IMG/VR virus record: IMGVR_UViG_3300027728_000079
Coordinates: 1 to 26,001 of that record
Reading direction: 5' to 3' (one strand)
Source: a virus
DNA: 26,001 bases
Shown: in pieces, positions 11,081-25,930 of the stretch
Layout of the letters: every line of letters begins with the position of its first letter
Position numbering within the stretch: the first letter of the stretch is position 1
Translations under genes and position numbers: made by a program
The notes under the pieces: model-generated
Told to the model about the DNA's origin: nothing
The model's input: the letters and a program-made list of their open reading frames with translations, nothing else
Database searches by the model: none

Positions 11081-11102
11081 ATTGCCGCGAATTATTTTTA
11101 TT

Positions 11103-11993
11103 ATGACTACATCAATTATCTTAATGGCATTTGGGAAAAACGGCTACTACTTTGCGGCCTATAACCTTGCATTTTCCATTAAAGAACAAGGTTGTATAAC
11201 CCCAATACATTTGATTACCGATTCTTATGAGAAATTGGCTAAGAATATTGGTGAGCGCATTAATGTTTTTGATTTGATTGTTGAAATTGAACCGCAACAC
11301 TTCAAAGTTGGTGAACCAGCATTTGCAAAATTAAACTTACATCATTACATTACAACTGACCGCGCGCTCTATTTAGATGTTGACGCGGTTGCAGTTAAAG
11401 ACATTTCTCCTTTAATTAAATTGTTAGAGGACGCAAACAAGCCGTATATTTCGCATACAGTAGGGTATCACACAATTGATAAAGGTAACGATATTCCATC
11501 AATGCAATGGGCTTGGGCTAATGACATTTGGAATCAATATGCGCTTCCAACAGATGCTGTGCTTCCCGCAATAAACTCTTCGCTTGTATTTATCAACAGA
11601 GTTGGAGCAGAACCAATCTATAAAAAAGCATTGGAATTATACGCAAATCCAATACCTGTTAAAAAATTACGCATGCCGTGGGGAGGTTCTCAGCCTGATG
11701 AACTATACATGAACATTGCCTTGTCGATTTGTAATATTGACCCATCACTTGACGGCAAAGGAAACGATGATAAGACGGGAGTAATTCATTTTGCAATGAA
11801 GCGCACGTTAACCACGGTTGAGGTAAGAGAACGTTTTTATTTACAATCATATTACGGCGGCCTTGGATTTACCAATTCATTTTACACAAATTGGTGCGAT
11901 AAGATATTGCGTGATTTACACGCAGCAAAAGGATTAAGACACGATTTTACAATGAATCATATTTTAAAAGATAAACACGCAAATAAGAAATAA
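11103..11993 (+). CDS. Glycosyltransferase, GT-A fold (GT8-like)
   Basis: This 296-aa protein starts at the ATG at 11103. A first beta-alpha unit (SIILMAFGKNGYYFAAYNLA, residues 4-23) is followed by the metal- and nucleotide-sugar-binding DxD motif in LYLDVDAVAV (Asp92, Asp94), preceded by AKLNLHHYITTDR, as in GT8 enzymes, where the conserved Lys and Asp lead into the DxD strand. Such enzymes transfer a sugar from a nucleotide sugar. The acceptor is unknown: it could be a virion protein, phage DNA or a host glycan. The gene sits between structural genes and next to a methyltransferase, suggesting a small modification cassette expressed with the virion. Confidence 0.8.
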   Translation: MTTSIILMAFGKNGYYFAAYNLAFSIKEQGCITPIHLITDSYEKLAKNIGERINVFDLIVEIEPQHFKVGEPAFAKLNLHHYITTDRALYLDVDAVAVKDISPLIKLLEDANKPYISHTVGYHTIDKGNDIPSMQWAWANDIWNQYALPTDAVLPAINSSLVFINRVGAEPIYKKALELYANPIPVKKLRMPWGGSQPDELYMNIALSICNIDPSLDGKGNDDKTGVIHFAMKRTLTTVEVRERFYLQSYYGGLGFTNSFYTNWCDKILRDLHAAKGLRHDFTMNHILKDKHANKK

Positions 11994-12001
11994 AATAACG
12001 A

Positions 12002-12559
12002 ATGGAACTAAGCAGCGAACAGGTTAAGGCAATGGCAAAAGAAGTTGAGGGGGGCGAGCGTCACTTATGGAATAGCGAACCTGAAGTATGTGATTTTATT
12101 GGTAGCCTTGTTGCTATGATTAAGCCTAATCGTGCGCTTGAAATTGGTGTTTTTCAAGGTGAAACAAGTGTAAAAATCATTGAAAATATGCCGAAAGATT
12201 CATATTTTGCAGGCGTTGACATTGAAGATTTTCGCACTCATAATTGGGCGGGCACTCAACATAGAGGTAGTGCATTTGATTTTATAAAAGGTAGTTCATC
12301 CGATTCCTCCACCTACAAAGGATTTAGCGATAAATTTGATTTTATATTTGTAGACTCAATGCACCATTGGCAGCACATTTTACCTGAATGGAAGATTGTT
12401 GAAAAGTGGCTTGCACAAGGCGGTGTAATTGTATACCATGACACTCATCATATTGAAGACGTTGCAAGGTTAATGGAATATATTGAAAATTACGGATACA
12501 ACATAATTAAACTACAAACACCCTATAATAGAGGATTAACTTTAATAACAAAAGCATGA
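12002..12559 (+). CDS. Class I SAM-dependent methyltransferase
   Basis: This 185-aa protein has a Rossmann-type methyltransferase core. Motif I is ALEIGVFQGETS (residues 45-56). The acidic residue after the second strand is Asp73 in GVDIED. FDFIFVDSMHHW (112-123) and GGVIVYHDTHH (140-150) supply strand 4 and 5 residues typical of the methyltransferase_24 group. That group methylates small molecules or sugars, among other substrates; the target here is unknown. It follows the glycosyltransferase by eight bases, and its stop overlaps the start of the next small gene as ATGA. It could modify a glycan that the transferase adds. Confidence 0.82.
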   Translation: MELSSEQVKAMAKEVEGGERHLWNSEPEVCDFIGSLVAMIKPNRALEIGVFQGETSVKIIENMPKDSYFAGVDIEDFRTHNWAGTQHRGSAFDFIKGSSSDSSTYKGFSDKFDFIFVDSMHHWQHILPEWKIVEKWLAQGGVIVYHDTHHIEDVARLMEYIENYGYNIIKLQTPYNRGLTLITKA

Positions 12560-20217: not shown

Positions 20218-22344
20218 ATGGCAACTCCATCAGAATTTAAAAAATTAACAGACCCAACAATTCCTTTTCAAAGCGGAACCGTTGCGCTAAATGATTTAGC
20301 ACATATAGTTGATGTAAGTGATACTTCAGGAGGTGCTGCGGGGACTTCTAAACGTACAACAGTTCAAAAGATTGTTGATGTTGTGGCTGCAAACATTGAT
20401 ACATTTGTTCCACTTGCAGGAACAGATGTTGGAGCGCCTATTACAGGGCAAATTGAAATGCAAAACGATGCGGTTACTTCAATTTATAAAAAAACGGAAC
20501 TCCAAAAGTGGCAACTGTATATGCCTGATGAGGCAATTATAGCATTAAGAAACGATTTAATTGAAGATACTGAAGGAACAATTTTTTTATTAACACCCGA
20601 TAGTATGTTAGCTTCTGCGCCTGGCGTAACAGGATTTAGAGGTGTTGAATATGGTACAGACTATTCGGCTAATTATACACTTCTCAGCCTCATCGACAAA
20701 GGTTATTTATTTAAAACTGCGGCTACAACATTATTAGCAACAGCGCCAACAGTAGATGAAGATGACCAAGATGGTTATGTAGTTGGAAGCAGAGTAATTG
20801 CACAAGACACCCAAATCGAATATAAATGTAACGATAACTCAACAGGCGCAGCGGTTTGGCAGGCGCAAAGTTTTAATATAATTTCAATCACCTATTCAGA
20901 TTTAGTTACGGCAATATCAAATTCAACATTAGTAAAATTAGGGTGGTATTTGCTAACAGACTTTGAATTAACACATGAAATACCTAATAGTGAAGGGGCT
21001 ACTTGGACATCTCCTGTTGAGCCGATTTTAATCCAAGCTATTGACGTTAATAAATTAGCTGATTACGGCCACTCTCAAACATGGTTAGGCGAGGTTGTTT
21101 ATTATACAACTGATAATAATCAATCTGCGGTGTTAGGGTGTACAAAAGGTTATGTAAGAAGGAGGGTAAATAATAGATGGAAACTTGATTTTGGAACTGA
21201 TTACAGAAATAATAGATATAGGAGGTTTGCGGTTAATGTTACAAATACTTATGATGGTGCAACTACTTACGCTCAATATGATGTGGTTGAAGATGGTAGC
21301 GGGGTTGTGTATGGAAGTTTGCAAGCTGGAAATTTAGGAAATGCTTTGGCCGACGAATTGTTTTGGGTTAATTTAGGATATAATAACGGTGAATATTGGG
21401 GGGTAACTGGCACAACTTGGAATATTGGAAATTATACCATTGACACCGATGCTGCTGATTTTGAAGATAGACCTATGTTAGACCCAACTGATTTAGATAG
21501 TGGAAATTACTTTAACGGAACAATTGAACAAAGCGCAGATGAAACAGGGTTTAATTTTGGGTTAAATCAATTAAACAATATTGTTGTTAAACTCGGCAGC
21601 ACCATGTACGGCTTCACAATGAGTAGCAACAGCGCCATGTACAACTTCACATTGAGTGGCAACACCAGCCTGTACGGCTTCACATTGAGCGACAGCAGCA
21701 CCATGTACGGCTTCTCATTGAGTGGCGGCAGCCTGTACGGCTTCACAATGAGCTACAGTAGCCTGTACGACTTCACATTGAGTAGCGGCACCAGCCTGTA
21801 CGGCTTCACATTGAGTGGCTACAGCACCATGTACGACTTCACATTGAGTGGCAACAGCAGCCTGTACGGCTTCACATTGAGTGGCAACAGCACCATGTAC
21901 GGCTTCTCATTGAGTGGCGGCAGCCTGTACGACTTCACATTGAGTAGCGGCATCACCATGTACGGCTTCACATTGAGTGGCTACAGCACCATGTACGGCT
22001 TCACATTGAGTGGCTACAGCACCATGTACGACTTCACATTGAGCAACAGCAGCCTGTACGGCTTCACATTGAGCGACAGCAGCCTGTACGGCTTCACAAT
22101 GAGCTACAGTAGCCTGTACGGCTTCACAATGAGCTACAGTAGCCTGTACGGCTTCACAATGTCTTTACAAACAATTCGAAAATTCTCAATGGAGGGCGTA
22201 ACGGTAAATACCCTCGACACCACAATAGCAACAATAATTTTCGGAAATTACTCTAAAACAATAACGTCAAGGAAAGATGGAGCACCAAGAATTAGTTACA
22301 TAGATAATTCGGACGCATTACAAATTGTAGATATAAACATATAA
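20218..22344 (+). CDS. Phage appendage / tail fibre protein with 18 tandem 10/11-residue repeats
   Basis: This 708-aa protein has an N-terminal attachment part. Its first 60 residues carry the LNDLAHIVDVSDTS...GTSKRTTVQKIV pattern common at the start of Bacteroidota phage fibres. A beta-rich middle part follows. Residues 463-649 are 18 tandem repeats of the form [LM]Y[GDN]F[TS][LM]S followed by three or four variable residues (G, N, Y, D, S, T). The alternating Y-F-L pattern predicts stacked beta strands, probably a beta-solenoid. A short C-terminal part (about 650-708) caps it. Repeat DNA is GC-richer than the rest of the gene and uses TAC/GGC/TTC codons instead of the AT-rich synonyms used elsewhere. 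A role in host binding is inferred. Confidence 0.8.
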   Translation: MATPSEFKKLTDPTIPFQSGTVALNDLAHIVDVSDTSGGAAGTSKRTTVQKIVDVVAANIDTFVPLAGTDVGAPITGQIEMQNDAVTSIYKKTELQKWQLYMPDEAIIALRNDLIEDTEGTIFLLTPDSMLASAPGVTGFRGVEYGTDYSANYTLLSLIDKGYLFKTAATTLLATAPTVDEDDQDGYVVGSRVIAQDTQIEYKCNDNSTGAAVWQAQSFNIISITYSDLVTAISNSTLVKLGWYLLTDFELTHEIPNSEGATWTSPVEPILIQAIDVNKLADYGHSQTWLGEVVYYTTDNNQSAVLGCTKGYVRRRVNNRWKLDFGTDYRNNRYRRFAVNVTNTYDGATTYAQYDVVEDGSGVVYGSLQAGNLGNALADELFWVNLGYNNGEYWGVTGTTWNIGNYTIDTDAADFEDRPMLDPTDLDSGNYFNGTIEQSADETGFNFGLNQLNNIVVKLGSTMYGFTMSSNSAMYNFTLSGNTSLYGFTLSDSSTMYGFSLSGGSLYGFTMSYSSLYDFTLSSGTSLYGFTLSGYSTMYDFTLSGNSSLYGFTLSGNSTMYGFSLSGGSLYDFTLSSGITMYGFTLSGYSTMYGFTLSGYSTMYDFTLSNSSLYGFTLSDSSLYGFTMSYSSLYGFTMSYSSLYGFTMSLQTIRKFSMEGVTVNTLDTTIATIIFGNYSKTITSRKDGAPRISYIDNSDALQIVDINI
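21604..22164 (+). repeat. Tandem 30/33-bp repeat array inside the fibre gene
   Basis: Seventeen units of 30 or 33 bp and a partial eighteenth are arranged head to tail. They are nearly identical in the core TGTACGGCTTCACA with TTGAGT or ATGAGC after it. Ten units are 33 bp and seven are 30 bp. Variation is concentrated in the third codon (GGC, GAC, AAC) and the last three or four codons. Nucleotide conservation well beyond what the protein requires points to recent duplication or gene conversion. Confidence 0.9.
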
Positions 22345-22375: not shown

Positions 22376-22594
22376 ATGGCATCAATGGAACAAAATACAG
22401 ACAGTAATAACGGAATACTTGGATGGGCAATATTCGCAGTAAGTTTTATTGGTTCGTTTTTAGAGCCGCTAACTGATGGATTAAAATTTATAGCTGCGTT
22501 TACCGCCGCACTTATTGGTGTTGTAAAGGTTGTTCAATGGATAAGAGTTGAATTAAACAAAAGAAAAAAGGCGCAACAAAAAGGCGGTATTTAA
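22376..22594 (+). CDS. Small holin-like membrane protein
   Basis: This 72-aa protein has a polar N-terminus, a hydrophobic stretch (about residues 14-30), a second moderately hydrophobic stretch (about 35-53), and a basic C-terminal tail (NKRKKAQQKGG). Small size, one or two membrane segments and a charged C-terminus fit a holin, which makes pores in the inner membrane at the end of infection. No endolysin is visible nearby, so this is only probable. The gene ends at the exact junction with the convergent minus-strand module. Confidence 0.55.
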   Translation: MASMEQNTDSNNGILGWAIFAVSFIGSFLEPLTDGLKFIAAFTAALIGVVKVVQWIRVELNKRKKAQQKGGI

Positions 22595-22600
22595 CTACCG
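22585..22600. terminator. Small hairpin at the convergent junction
   Basis: CGGTA (22585-22589) and TACCG (22596-22600) form a 5-bp stem around the stop codons of two convergent genes, with a six-base loop. It could serve both directions, but the stem is short and no T run follows, so this is a weak call. Confidence 0.25.
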
Positions 22601-23302
22601 TATCAACCTACCCGCCAAATCGTATCTAAGCGTATCAATAACAATTTCCTTGCATAATACATAGATTGGCTGCGATATTGTCATTTCACCGTTGTAATCG
22701 TATTCTAATATTTGCAAATAATAAACCCCCAAATAATTAAAAGGCACACGTAAATAATAATTCTGCTGCGTTGAGGTGTTGCCGAATGCATTTTTACTGC
22801 CAATTCGCTGCCAACTAATCATATCACTTGACACCATAATATCAAAATAATTCGCGTTTGTTTCTGACATTGTTTGCCAGTTAATCACCAAGTATCCATT
22901 GTTTTGATATCCTTGTATTGCTCCGAAATTCACAGCCAAAGCTACGTAAGGAATGAAATATGGGCAAAAATTATCTATGTATGAATTAGTGATTGTAAAG
23001 CAAATGTTCAGCGTGTCGTTGCCTAATTGTACATAGTTGCCTTGTTGAATTAGTGTTGCGTTTTGGTATTGGTTTATTTCGCTAATATTTAAACTACCAT
23101 TTTGCGGTGAAGAATAAGCCACGTAAATATATCCTTCTGCGCCGTTTGTATTAAGGTCAAAGCAAAGTGTAGTGTCTCCTATAATTAATTGCTCAAAGCA
23201 AAATGAAGCATTGTAGATTTGGATGAAACTTGGAACAGTGGGAGTGGTAAAAATTTGGCAAGTAACAAGCAATGGCGCAAGTAATAGTAGCAAAGTTTTC
23301 AT
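22595..23302 (-). CDS. Exported protein with a T9SS type A-like surface domain
   Basis: This 235-aa protein starts at the ATG at 23302, which overlaps the upstream stop as ATGA; an upstream in-frame ATG at 23365 lies inside the previous gene. The N-terminus (KTLLLLLAPLLVTCQ) is a signal peptide, perhaps a lipoprotein one with Cys15. Residues about 122-213 match the beta-sandwich common just before T9SS sorting domains of Bacteroidota, with NWQTMSETNANYFDI (141-155), the 'SsDmisWq.IG' strand and YYLQILEYDYNGE (194-206). The ending YDLAGRLIR (227-235) matches the middle of the type A sorting domain, but the protein stops there, so the domain looks truncated. Surface display is inferred. Confidence 0.75.
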   Translation of the reverse strand: MKTLLLLLAPLLVTCQIFTTPTVPSFIQIYNASFCFEQLIIGDTTLCFDLNTNGAEGYIYVAYSSPQNGSLNISEINQYQNATLIQQGNYVQLGNDTLNICFTITNSYIDNFCPYFIPYVALAVNFGAIQGYQNNGYLVINWQTMSETNANYFDIMVSSDMISWQRIGSKNAFGNTSTQQNYYLRVPFNYLGVYYLQILEYDYNGEMTISQPIYVLCKEIVIDTLRYDLAGRLIR

Positions 23303-23808
23303 CTTACCAACGTCACCCTCCCCAAATCTCTTAATTTCAAACCCGTAATTGTAGTGTAGTCGCAAGTGTAAACGTACACGCCGCCCATAAATTCACCACC
23401 ATCCCATTCACTCACACCTTCAAATATTACTTGCCCTTCCCGTGTAAAAATCCTTATCATATCTATTGTAATATTTTCTCCAACGGGAATCCAAGTTTTA
23501 TTCGTCCCGTCTGGCACAAATGCATTCGGGGCGTAGTAAGTCCACTCTTTGCAATTGTCGACAAATAGAATACGTTTATCAATTGATGTGCATCCGTATT
23601 CATTTGTAATCTCCAACTCCACAATAAAACTACCTTCACGATTAACTACTAATGTTGCATCTTGTTCGGTACTTATAAATCCATCTACATTCCAATTGTA
23701 CCCGTATGCAGTTTGAGTAGTAAGATTTATTATTATATCCTTGTCGCAGTAGTTAATCTGTGCAATAATTGAGTAACATAAAAAAAGCAGCACAAGGGTT
23801 ATTCTCAT
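23299..23808 (-). CDS. Short exported protein with T9SS type B (gliding-motility) sorting domain
   Basis: This 169-aa protein has a signal peptide (MRITLVLLFLCYSIIAQ), a PKD-like domain (about residues 20-86) and a complete C-terminal type B sorting domain (about 91-169). The conserved parts are PNAFVPDG (94-101), IRIFTREGQVIFEG (118-131), WDG (135-137), GGVYVY (142-147) and GRVTLVR (163-169). In Bacteroidota this domain directs export through the type IX secretion system to the cell surface. The protein consists of little more than the domain. A -7 element (TAAATTTG, 23813-23820) ends four bases before its ATG, so it can be expressed without the genes upstream. Confidence 0.85.
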   Translation of the reverse strand: MRITLVLLFLCYSIIAQINYCDKDIIINLTTQTAYGYNWNVDGFISTEQDATLVVNREGSFIVELEITNEYGCTSIDKRILFVDNCKEWTYYAPNAFVPDGTNKTWIPVGENITIDMIRIFTREGQVIFEGVSEWDGGEFMGGVYVYTCDYTTITGLKLRDLGRVTLVR

Positions 23809-23812
23809 GCTA

Positions 23813-23820
23813 CAAATTTA
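23813..23820 (-). promoter_or_regulatory. -7 promoter element before the T9SS-B gene
   Basis: On the minus strand TAAATTTG ends four bases before the ATG at 23808. This matches the -7 element and spacing at the nuclease and terminase genes. No clear TTG at the -33 distance was seen. Confidence 0.5.
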
Positions 23821-23834
23821 ATCCAAAAAAGTTA

Positions 23835-24164
23835 CTATAATGTTAATTCTTTGCCCGTTAAAGCAAAATAAAGGTTTTGAAAAGTATGAACGTATTCGCA
23901 CATTATTTCCATTTTATTAATCCATATATAAACCTTTTGAAAATTTACAGATTCATCGGAGGAGAATTTTAAATACCTATATTTTAAATGCAACCATGCG
24001 TTATCTTCATCAAATATATCTTTTACAAACCCTAACTTTAATAACCATTCTTCATTAATTTGAATTGGTTTACACTAACTTCTTATAGTATTTGGGGTTG
24101 CTTTTGTAATGATTCCATTATTATCAAAATAATTTCCTACTCTTAATTCATTTGCTTGTATCAT
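23835..24164 (-). pseudogene. Conserved small phage gene interrupted by an in-frame TAG
   Basis: Reading from the ATG at 24164 gives MIQANELRVGNYF..., the start of a small protein family common in Bacteroidota phages and mobile elements. It then meets TAG at codon 30 (24077-24075). The same frame continues with CKPIQINEEWLLKLGF, a helical stretch and the typical ending YVHTFQNLYFALTGKELTL, to a TAG at 23837-23835. Both halves fit one 109-residue gene, so the stop is a lesion or sequence error. TAG ends other genes here (for example the capsid gene), which argues against recoding. Function of the family is not known to me. Confidence 0.75.
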
Positions 24165-24174
24165 GGTCTTATTT

Positions 24175-24441
24175 TTAATTACACACCGCCACAACACACG
24201 CAATAACACCAAATGCAAGCCCTATTACAAACCAAGTGAAGCTGAAATATGATTTTTGTAAGGGTGGGATGTCTTTGATGTTTTTGTTGGCACGTACTAA
24301 AGCCTCTTTTAATACAGTTCTTGTAAATTGAAAAGGTAAAATTCTACCATCTTCAAGTTTTATGTAGGTTGTTTGATATTGTAAGCCCGCACCAAACTCG
24401 TGATGCTTGTTCTCGATTGTTTTTAATTCGCCTTGTTTCAT
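24175..24441 (-). CDS. Small tail-anchored membrane protein
   Basis: This 88-aa protein has a soluble N-terminal part of about 65 residues (ELKTIENKHHEFGAGLQYQTTYIKL...) and one C-terminal membrane segment (SFTWFVIGLAFGVIACVVAV, about 67-86), so it is probably inserted with most of its mass in the cytoplasm. The family is not recognised. It lies between the propeller-like gene and the interrupted gene with gaps of 19 and 10 bases, as in an operon. Confidence 0.7.
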   Translation of the reverse strand: MKQGELKTIENKHHEFGAGLQYQTTYIKLEDGRILPFQFTRTVLKEALVRANKNIKDIPPLQKSYFSFTWFVIGLAFGVIACVVAVCN

Positions 24442-24460
24442 TTTATATAAATTTAGTTAT

Positions 24461-25930
24461 TTAAAAGCCTATAATACCTGCGAGTATCCCCCCACTAACA
24501 TTTACAATCTGAACCCTACTTGTCGTTTCACAATCACAAATCCTTTCCAAAGTAACTGAATGATTTCCGTTTGGCAAATTAACAGTTACATTAAGTCCAT
24601 TAGCAACACCAAAACTACCTATCCATCTATACGTGCAAGGCTCAAAACAAGTGCGAGGAACAGCGTTTAAATTAGCTTGAGCGCAAGAAGATGTGTAAGT
24701 AAATGGTAACATTGCGGGCCGTGTGTATGGCATTGAAATATTTTGCAGACCAAACATAGTGTTTCCGTTTGCAATTGCAGCGTTGAAAACAAAATTACAA
24801 CCTACTCCTGGGGTTAATGGATTGTTGATTCGTGCAATGTCTGTATTGTTTCCGCGTGAAATGTAAATGCGTCCGTCGTCTGCATACCAACCTGTTCCAA
24901 GACTCGCAACAGTCTGAGGCGTTGAACCAACTTGTGTTATTGTTCCTGTACAAACATTAATTTGCCTTACTGCTCCATTGTTTGAAAAGGTGTAAAGTAA
25001 GTTCTCAGCAAACTTTGAATCGTAAACACCATTTATAGTATAGTTATTTTGAAATGTTACTACTCCCGTTGACTTGTTAAAGCCGTAAGTTTCAATTTGA
25101 TTTACTCCATAGTAACAAACTGCGAATCTATTGCCGTCTAAATGAAAACCAAGTGTACCTTGTGATCCGTTTGCGCCTCCATTTAGTCCTGCACTACTTA
25201 TGATTGCTGGACCTAATCCGCCTGCTGTTAATGGGTAAGCGTAGAAATTAGTTGATTGAAAACGCTTAGTTACAATCCATGTCGTGTCGCCGCCGCAAGT
25301 AGTTACAGCACTTACCGATTCGCGCATATTAAAAGCCGCATTTAAAGCAACGTTTTTTACTGCTGTAACGGCCCCTAAACCTCCATTAAGTGTCATGTCA
25401 ATTACGCTGTATGCCAAAGGTGCTAATCCCATTTGACCAAGTGTAAATAAATACAAAATATTTGGCGTGTTTGGTTGATCAACTATTAAAGCTGATTGCG
25501 TTGTGGAATTGCTGCCCGTTAAAAAGTTTCCATTTGGCATTGCGTTATTGTTCCTATCGTATGCCGTTAGACCATCGCTGTAAGCAAGTATTTGACCTGC
25601 GGCATTTGATAGGCAACTTGTACCCTCAATGGTATTAATTGCGCCAAATTGAAATGCTGCGGGAGGGTTGAGCCTTACGTTACGCCCAAATGTCCAGTTT
25701 TGGTTTTGGGCGGTGCAGAATAAGGGCAATAAAAACAGCACTAGAAATACTTTAGATTGAAGCCATTTAACAGTTCTTAAATACCTTCTTAATTGCTTAA
25801 ATCCTTTGCTACTTACTTTAAATTCAGCGTTACTATTAAAAGCTGGATAATAAAATGAAGCATAACCAAAATTATAAACTTCAACTTTAAAACCATCAAC
25901 TTCTATTTCTCTTATGTTAATGTTTGCCAT
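24461..25930 (-). CDS. Exported beta-propeller-like protein of the Bacteroidota gliding/PKD family
   Basis: This 489-aa protein has an N-terminal extension (1-58), a hydrophobic signal-like segment ending TAQ (about 60-75), and then a mature part that opens like Bacteroidota surface proteins usually found ahead of PKD and type B sorting domains. The characteristic parts are NWTFGRNVRL (78-87), EGTSCLSNAAGQILAYSDG (102-120), MPNG (131-134) and TTQSALIV (143-150). About five beta-propeller-like repeats follow, then a short PKD-like end (about 430-489). There is no sorting domain. The signal segment lies 60 residues from the start, and no in-frame start codon lies nearer, so the fused N-terminus is odd. 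Host-surface change or adhesion is inferred. Confidence 0.75.
   Translation of the reverse strand: MANINIREIEVDGFKVEVYNFGYASFYYPAFNSNAEFKVSSKGFKQLRRYLRTVKWLQSKVFLVLFLLPLFCTAQNQNWTFGRNVRLNPPAAFQFGAINTIEGTSCLSNAAGQILAYSDGLTAYDRNNNAMPNGNFLTGSNSTTQSALIVDQPNTPNILYLFTLGQMGLAPLAYSVIDMTLNGGLGAVTAVKNVALNAAFNMRESVSAVTTCGGDTTWIVTKRFQSTNFYAYPLTAGGLGPAIISSAGLNGGANGSQGTLGFHLDGNRFAVCYYGVNQIETYGFNKSTGVVTFQNNYTINGVYDSKFAENLLYTFSNNGAVRQINVCTGTITQVGSTPQTVASLGTGWYADDGRIYISRGNNTDIARINNPLTPGVGCNFVFNAAIANGNTMFGLQNISMPYTRPAMLPFTYTSSCAQANLNAVPRTCFEPCTYRWIGSFGVANGLNVTVNLPNGNHSVTLERICDCETTSRVQIVNVSGGILAGIIGF

Follow-up and report, generated by a model that had tools for sequence, protein, structure and literature searches.

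Why should a phage carry, beside its virion genes, a set of genes for exported proteins resembling substrates of the type IX secretion system (T9SS) of the Bacteroidota? The question is raised by IMG/VR record IMGVR_UViG_3300027728_000079, which was analysed over its whole length (26,001 bases, the complete virus record, referred to here as the window) and which is a truncated phage. The virion genes lie on the plus strand and include a terminase (phrog_979/phrog_2), a portal (phrog_7376), a tape-measure-like protein and other virion proteins; the minus strand carries all genes from 22595 onward. A first-pass annotation had singled out three of these, at 24461-25930, 23299-23808 and 22595-23302, as encoding exported proteins by which the phage might use the host T9SS. 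All three are real open reading frames (ORFs) with Sec signal peptides. What was observed there is largely real, partly confirmed in its details and larger than first described, and the interpretation is partly supported. Our own reading, to which we give a probability of about 0.55 on sequence evidence, is that this late-region module would use the host T9SS to put a split surface complex on display at the infected Bacteroidota cell.

A small type B protein and its phage setting

The argument turns on the product of 23299-23808 (minus strand), a T9SS type B protein of 169 amino acids (aa) that we call the mini. It consists of a signal peptide (residues 1-16), a PKD/immunoglobulin (Ig)-like domain (17-85) and a divergent, CHU_C-like type B C-terminal domain (CTD; 86-169), the last encoded by 23302-23553 and ending in GRVTLVR. 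A hydrophobic N-terminus and a Q-rule site, by which the Sec signal peptide was recognised, are found in the sequences of 7/7 mini orthologues. Cleavage of the three exported signal-peptide proteins is predicted at A^Q, A^Q and C^Q (^ marking the cleaved bond), with the Q site kept in relatives, and all three therefore fit the Bacteroidetes Q-rule for signal-peptide cleavage (PMC5837995).

The homology of the mini to type B sorting domains is seen in several comparisons. Among the seven phage orthologues CHU_C (PF13585) matches all seven, with a best value of 4.7e-6, and TIGR04131 matches four, with a best value of 3.2e-6. Profile-profile comparison (hhalign) of the mini family with a set of three type B domains, two bacterial and one from a huge phage, gave 96.9% and E 1.6e-10 over columns 91-169 of 169, that is, to the last residue. 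PKD-type matches were returned when solved structures were searched with the mini. The two minis of larger phages that were scanned score 45.8 and 59.9 bits, above the CHU_C cut-off of 27. The sorting domain is also the most conserved part of the mini, with 77-88% identity between diverged phages as against 46-71% for the Ig domain, and the ratio of nonsynonymous to synonymous substitution rates (dN/dS), 0.04-0.26 where calculable, indicates purifying selection.

The product of 24461-25930 (minus strand) is an exported protein of propeller type; it has an Ig-like stretch at its C-terminal end, lacks a sorting domain, ends in ...GGILAGIIGF and has six orthologues. Its mature form is predicted to start at about residue 75 (CTA^QNQNW), and the roughly 60 residues ahead of the signal peptide are missing from most orthologues. 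The best match among plasmid-borne bacterial proteins is Adhaeribacter swui WP_185269933 (tblastn 1e-9; hhalign 97.8%), annotated as a 'gliding motility-associated C-terminal domain-containing protein', which is a single chain of 917 aa in which a propeller and PKD-like repeats are followed by a type B domain above cut-off (48.7 bits). The phage protein corresponds to the N-terminal region of this chain, which bears out the original description of a propeller lacking a sorting domain. A search of solved structures with the propeller gave nothing useful, and profile searches of genome contigs with its alignment, and with that of an endolysin that accompanies the cassette in relatives, gave no close cellular homologue and no bacterial host genome. 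A propeller and CTD encoded by 'split genes' in Hymenobacter volaticus were considered as a cellular precedent and rejected: the second ORF has no signal peptide, for which reason the pair is probably one frameshifted gene.

Minis recur in other phages. Scanning viral contigs with the type B alignment gave 80 loci, and complete minis of 133-206 aa were found at 23 loci in IMG/VR phages (about 17 distinct lineages once near-duplicates are removed), built from a signal peptide and a type B domain with no more than one Ig-like domain between them. The contigs that bear them range from 4 to 322 kb, and several hold terminase, endolysin, sheath or baseplate genes. At thirteen mini loci the gene directly upstream encodes an exported PKD protein of about 185 aa, to which PKD-195, the exported PKD protein of the window's cassette in its fuller form, is related. 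In the huge phage LR745206 such a partner (residues 401-558) and a mini (563-732) are fused in a single chain, and because of this fusion the PKD partner and the mini would be expected to work together. Huge uncultured phages encode further type B proteins (four in LR745206, three in LR756502), and type A domains are encoded by LR745206, LR756502 and LR756504. Two of the huge-phage type B proteins, of 107 and 116 aa, consist of a signal peptide and the sorting domain alone. These two stand-alone proteins, encoded at L284 9837-10217 and L285 9508-9858 (LR745206 and LR756502) without neighbours bearing the C-terminal tails described below, are possible secretion decoys.

Does the cassette belong to the phage? 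Its host-type domains, and its position on the strand opposite to the virion genes, could suggest host DNA beside a prophage end, as the first-pass annotation had allowed, or an assembly chimera. However, relatives of the mini and propeller occur in eight IMG/VR contigs (G001-G008), including a terminal-repeat genome, beside differing virion modules and with phage genes flanking the cassette on both sides. The three exported proteins are 100% identical in G001 and 96-99% identical in G002, the near-identical relatives. In G005 (38,574 bp), which carries a terminal repeat of 123 bp, the propeller gene spans the junction, and this places the cassette inside a complete genome; the virion genes of G003 and G005 have 35-86% identity to those of the window, in conserved order. 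G006 (45 kb) has, as read from its sequence, sheath-like, baseplate-J-like and capsid-protease-like proteins and is thus a contractile-tail phage, and its virion proteins have no detectable similarity to those of the window, yet it has the same cassette, with 68% identity in the propeller, 68% in the mini and 74% in PKD-195. Since the cassette is found both in the terminal-repeat genome and beside these unrelated virion genes, the host-DNA explanation is refuted, with a negligible residual probability, and the exported cassette belongs to the phage.

The exported unit meets the plus-strand virion side without a gap (22594/22595), as first described, and relatives keep the same convergent junction. 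In G006, too, the cassette ends facing a convergent small membrane protein and a fibre. In relatives the cassette always lies against holin/fibre genes.

Shared C-terminal tails

Propeller or PKD and CTD are encoded by separate genes in all phage relatives, and a means of bringing their products together may be found in their last residues. Within each phage, the exported neighbours of one mini end alike: ISHD on proteins of 382 and 185 aa in one phage, ISHN/IQHN on proteins of 214 and 187 aa in a second, and IWHN/IIHN/IFHN on three proteins in a third. In the window family the tail has the form I/V-x-G-F, with IIGF on the propeller (within ILAGIIGF, 24464-24487, minus strand) and ILGF or VIGF on the exported PKD-195 of relatives (...GGILGF / ...GSVIGF). 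Of three relatives with both propeller and PKD-195, each has exactly two ORFs ending in GF, and they are always these two genes.

The association with minis is close. Among 1,321 ORFs on 13 mini-bearing contigs, the ending I-x-H-[ND] occurs 21 times, always in a mini cluster. Sorted by filter, it is found in 19/27 exported proteins encoded no more than three genes from a mini, in 1/64 other exported proteins and in 1/1,230 other ORFs (Fisher 3e-34 with all other ORFs as reference, 2e-12 with the other exported proteins). The two that fall outside the filter both lie in the mini cluster of G024, and missed the distance or the signal-peptide criterion. When the signal peptide and the last 12 residues are removed, tagged proteins of the same phage give no BLAST match to one another below E 1. 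Tail codons differ by synonymous changes, and a tailed gene may stand elsewhere than ahead of the mini, one tailed protein being encoded downstream of it, which implies that selection acts on the protein. For the same two reasons, translational coupling to the next gene was ruled out as an explanation of the tail.

In the fused chain of LR745206 the tail stands at the junction that leads into the Ig domain of the mini, a domain which it may complete or to which it may bind. The suggestion made at the outset, that the split pieces act together, thus has independent support from the shared tails and from the fused homologues. That partner and mini are assembled at the surface via the tail we regard, from these sequence patterns, as about an even chance.

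It could be argued instead that each protein is independent cargo: the mini would be a stand-alone T9SS surface protein, the propeller, PKD-195 and the third exported protein would be periplasmic or released by lysis, and the tails would be remnants of an ancestral junction. The existence of lone minis, the related PKD domains that precede some of the tails, and the coincidence of the tail with a domain junction in the fused homologue are all consistent with this. Remnants, however, would not readily account for tails common to proteins that are dissimilar elsewhere, including one encoded downstream of the mini, nor for their near absence from the remaining exported proteins of these phages (the single case being itself in a mini cluster), nor for their retention despite synonymous codon change. 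We consider independent cargo unlikely.

A broader proposal is that of a two-part sorting code, in which a small T9SS carrier would bring to the host surface unrelated exported proteins that bear a short, phage-specific tail (I-x-H-N/D or I/V-x-G-F), with some phages adding PorP/SprF. This is put forward tentatively, as a possibility that we rate below even.

Probable export through the host T9SS

Type B substrates need PorP/SprF shuttles, and orphan substrates use a host shuttle (PMC12618676, PMC9143113). Among the other type B-bearing records, 1/23 encodes a PorP/SprF of its own. This is G028, a T4-like phage (clamp loader 7e-53, RNA ligase/fibre attachment catalyst 9e-59) in which the PorP/SprF gene (E 1e-73) lies a few bases after the mini (record positions 23975-26814). 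In the same phage, two proteins encoded upstream of the mini end in NPIIKLY and NVIIKVN, the nearer one having a Q-rule signal peptide. Use of the host T9SS, as first proposed, is supported by the type B homology, by purifying selection on the sorting domain, by phage homologues numbering dozens, of which the scanned ones pass the cut-off, and by this PorP/SprF, and we consider export of the phage proteins by the host T9SS to be likely.

A PorP/SprF beside a mini favours productive export, and this bears on a further alternative, in which the mini would be a decoy: a cargo-poor sorting domain that occupies the SprA translocon or the PorP/SprF shuttles, and so blocks the export of host adhesins that serve as receptors. 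The strong conservation of the sorting domain, its altered motifs and the proteins of two huge phages that have nothing beyond signal peptide and CTD would all suit a decoy. So would the phage resistance of gld/spr T9SS/gliding mutants of Flavobacterium columnare (PMC9233685), which makes the T9SS relevant to phage entry. A decoy would leave the tagged partners unexplained, and we think it improbable.

In the split-complex reading that we prefer, the mini would be exported by Sec and then cross the outer membrane by the T9SS with a host PorP/SprF-type shuttle, like orphan type B substrates. The propeller and PKD-195, having no sorting domain, would most likely join it through the shared C-terminal tail, perhaps by strand donation to the mini's Ig domain. 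Pieces that form one chain in bacteria and in some huge phages would here constitute a split surface protein, assembled non-covalently. The benefit would most likely be receptor masking (superinfection exclusion) or altered adhesion.

Several observations weigh against this reading. The window mini falls below both curated cut-offs, reaching 15.2 bits for TIGR04131 (35 required) and 17 bits for CHU_C (27 required). It keeps the motifs PN.F.P, WDG, G.Y.Y and G.V.L.R; in every mini orthologue NRWG is altered to TREG and two residues are lost after PNAF.P.G. Two conserved motifs are thus changed here, and secretion of SprB requires each of five conserved CTD motifs (PMC12618676). The first-pass description of a complete type B domain was overstated, in that the motif changes are fixed in all orthologues, although the homology itself stands by profile and by relatives. 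Because it misses the curated cut-off, we call the window mini a divergent relative of T9SS type B CTD substrates, with a conserved but altered domain. No PorP/SprF gene is found in the window family (0/8 relatives); orphan type B substrates exist (PMC12618676), so that a missing neighbour is not disqualifying. As to the tails, the contigs are partly related and the Fisher values overstate independence; the tail type differs, being GF in the window family and HN/HD in the larger set; the correspondence of tail and junction holds for the PKD partner alone, since the propeller tail aligned with the junction of the bacterial fused chain no better than shuffles did; and lone minis without tagged neighbours occur, G009 and G012 among them. 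AlphaFold2 models of the mini and of the propeller (predicted local distance difference test score, pLDDT, 40) were too poor to give a fold and were not used.

Neighbouring genes and known systems

The third exported protein (22595-23302, minus strand; 235 aa) has a W.T.SE.N..YF domain and is present in three relatives as well as in the window. Its start is the ATG at 23302, not 23365, and overlaps the stop of the mini by 4 bp (ATGA), so that the two genes are translationally coupled. It had been described as having a type A-like ending, and a type A domain is rejected: there is no match to TIGR04183 (Por_Secre_tail), no PNP, and the protein terminates at a GRL(I/V) strand, ahead of the final strands. 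Only the domain commonly found ahead of type A signals can be recognised. Two smaller ORFs lie between mini and propeller on the minus strand. The one at 24175-24441 encodes a protein of 88 aa that has a membrane segment at its C-terminus and resembles holins weakly at best (phrog_689 E 0.13; orthologue E 0.033). The other, at 23835-24164 (MIQANELRVGNYFDNNG...), is a small phage ORF broken by an in-frame TAG, as it is in G001; other genes use TAG as an ordinary stop, and the TAG is therefore probably a nonsense mutation.

The record ends just past the propeller gene, so the cassette is incomplete in the window. In relatives the fuller order starts with a membrane protein and a signal-peptide endolysin (phrog_9589 E 1e-4); exported PKD-195 and the propeller follow, then variable inserts, a metallophosphoesterase (phrog_284 E 1e-40; absent from the window and G001), a 61-aa protein, the mini and, in some, the third protein, with the convergent holin and the fibre at the end. 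This exact cassette was not present in endolysin-bearing phages scanned within 10 kb (80 loci). The holin assignment comes from G005 (phrog_4237 E 2e-5), at the position equivalent to 22376-22594 (plus strand), where the window encodes a small membrane protein that is convergent with the cassette and abuts it. Such neighbours, the signal-peptide endolysin, membrane protein and holin, and the occurrence of another mini near an endolysin, would suit a role in lysis or egress, with the exported proteins weakening the envelope from the periplasm together with endolysin, holin and spanin-like genes. The domains, however, belong to surface-adhesin types, and a purely periplasmic protein would have no use for a type B sorting domain; we consider such a role very improbable. 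It is worth adding that a lipoprotein-like protein encoded near the endolysin region in G002 (L021 14911-15438) and G005 (L025 5031-5651) has a membrane segment at its C-terminus and resembles a unimolecular spanin, and that in the relatives examined the endolysin gene and the membrane-protein gene upstream of it share about 130-150 bp, read in different frames (L021 17102-18144; L027 11060-12087).

On the virion side, the last large gene of the operon (20218-22344, plus strand) encodes a fibre-like protein with repeats of 10/11 residues; between 21595 and 22191 it has many imperfect 30/33-bp repeats of YGFTLSxxST type. The fibre protein is 67% identical in G002, a relative that is near-identical elsewhere, which suggests rapid change. 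Within the virion operon, 11082-12559 carries a GT8-like glycosyltransferase and a methyltransferase-like gene, for both of which G003 and G005 retain about 70% identity. An inverted repeat of 23 nt (220-242 / 324-346; 91% complementary, 81 nt spacing) lies upstream of the first genes.

Some Bacteroidota phages require surface proteins exported by the T9SS in order to infect, as the resistance of gld/spr mutants indicates (PMC9233685). A phage with T9SS substrates of its own would rewrite a surface on which it and its rivals depend. Shared tails predict how proteins without a sorting domain could reach that surface, and tails of 8-10 residues are a candidate portable tag for surface display in Bacteroidota. 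Families of phage proteins so far listed as 'hypothetical', from jumbo as well as ordinary phages, can also be given names. If true, the two-part code would represent an undescribed multi-protein delivery via the T9SS and a widespread viral remodelling of the host surface.

Phages are known to have outer-membrane proteins for superinfection exclusion (PMC9586334). The T5 protein Llp is a lipoprotein that blocks FhuA and causes superinfection exclusion. The comparison with Llp is one of analogy alone, a phage protein at the host surface that could mask receptors; there is no sequence relation, and no receptor is known for the window proteins. Strand donation between exported subunits has a mechanistic analogy, with no sequence relation, in the same phylum: for Bacteroidetes Mfa-type fimbriae, donor-strand complementation is proposed (PMC4789730). 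SprB of Flavobacterium johnsoniae and other described type B substrates share with the mini a signal peptide, Ig/PKD-type domains and a type B CTD (PMC12618676, PMC9143113), and differ in size (SprB 669 kDa and PG1035 about 50 kDa, as against 169 aa) and in that most F. johnsoniae type B substrates adjoin a shuttle gene, whereas the window mini is an orphan with altered motifs. SprB-like gliding adhesins hold propeller/PKD and CTD in one chain, as do bacterial propeller-PKD-CHU_C proteins such as Adhaeribacter WP_185269933, in which the propeller and type B domain types are homologous to those of the phages; in the phage relatives they are separate proteins.

Phage type B minis, tail-sharing partners and phage PorP/SprF were not found reported in the open-access literature, the range of the search, which did not extend to subscription papers. 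The closest known case is Cryophage, which encodes T9SS type A cargo proposed to use the host system, with superinfection exclusion suggested (PMC7468147, 2020). The likeness lies in phage genes with T9SS sorting domains and in the same functional guess. Cryophage has type A cargo (endoglucanase, GH39, PA14) in one phage, whereas the cassette described here is type B, with a sorting protein that has no enzymatic cargo and separate tail-sharing partners, and it moves between unrelated phages. Phage T9SS cargo of type A has thus been known since 2020, and the type B mini cassette is a new variant.

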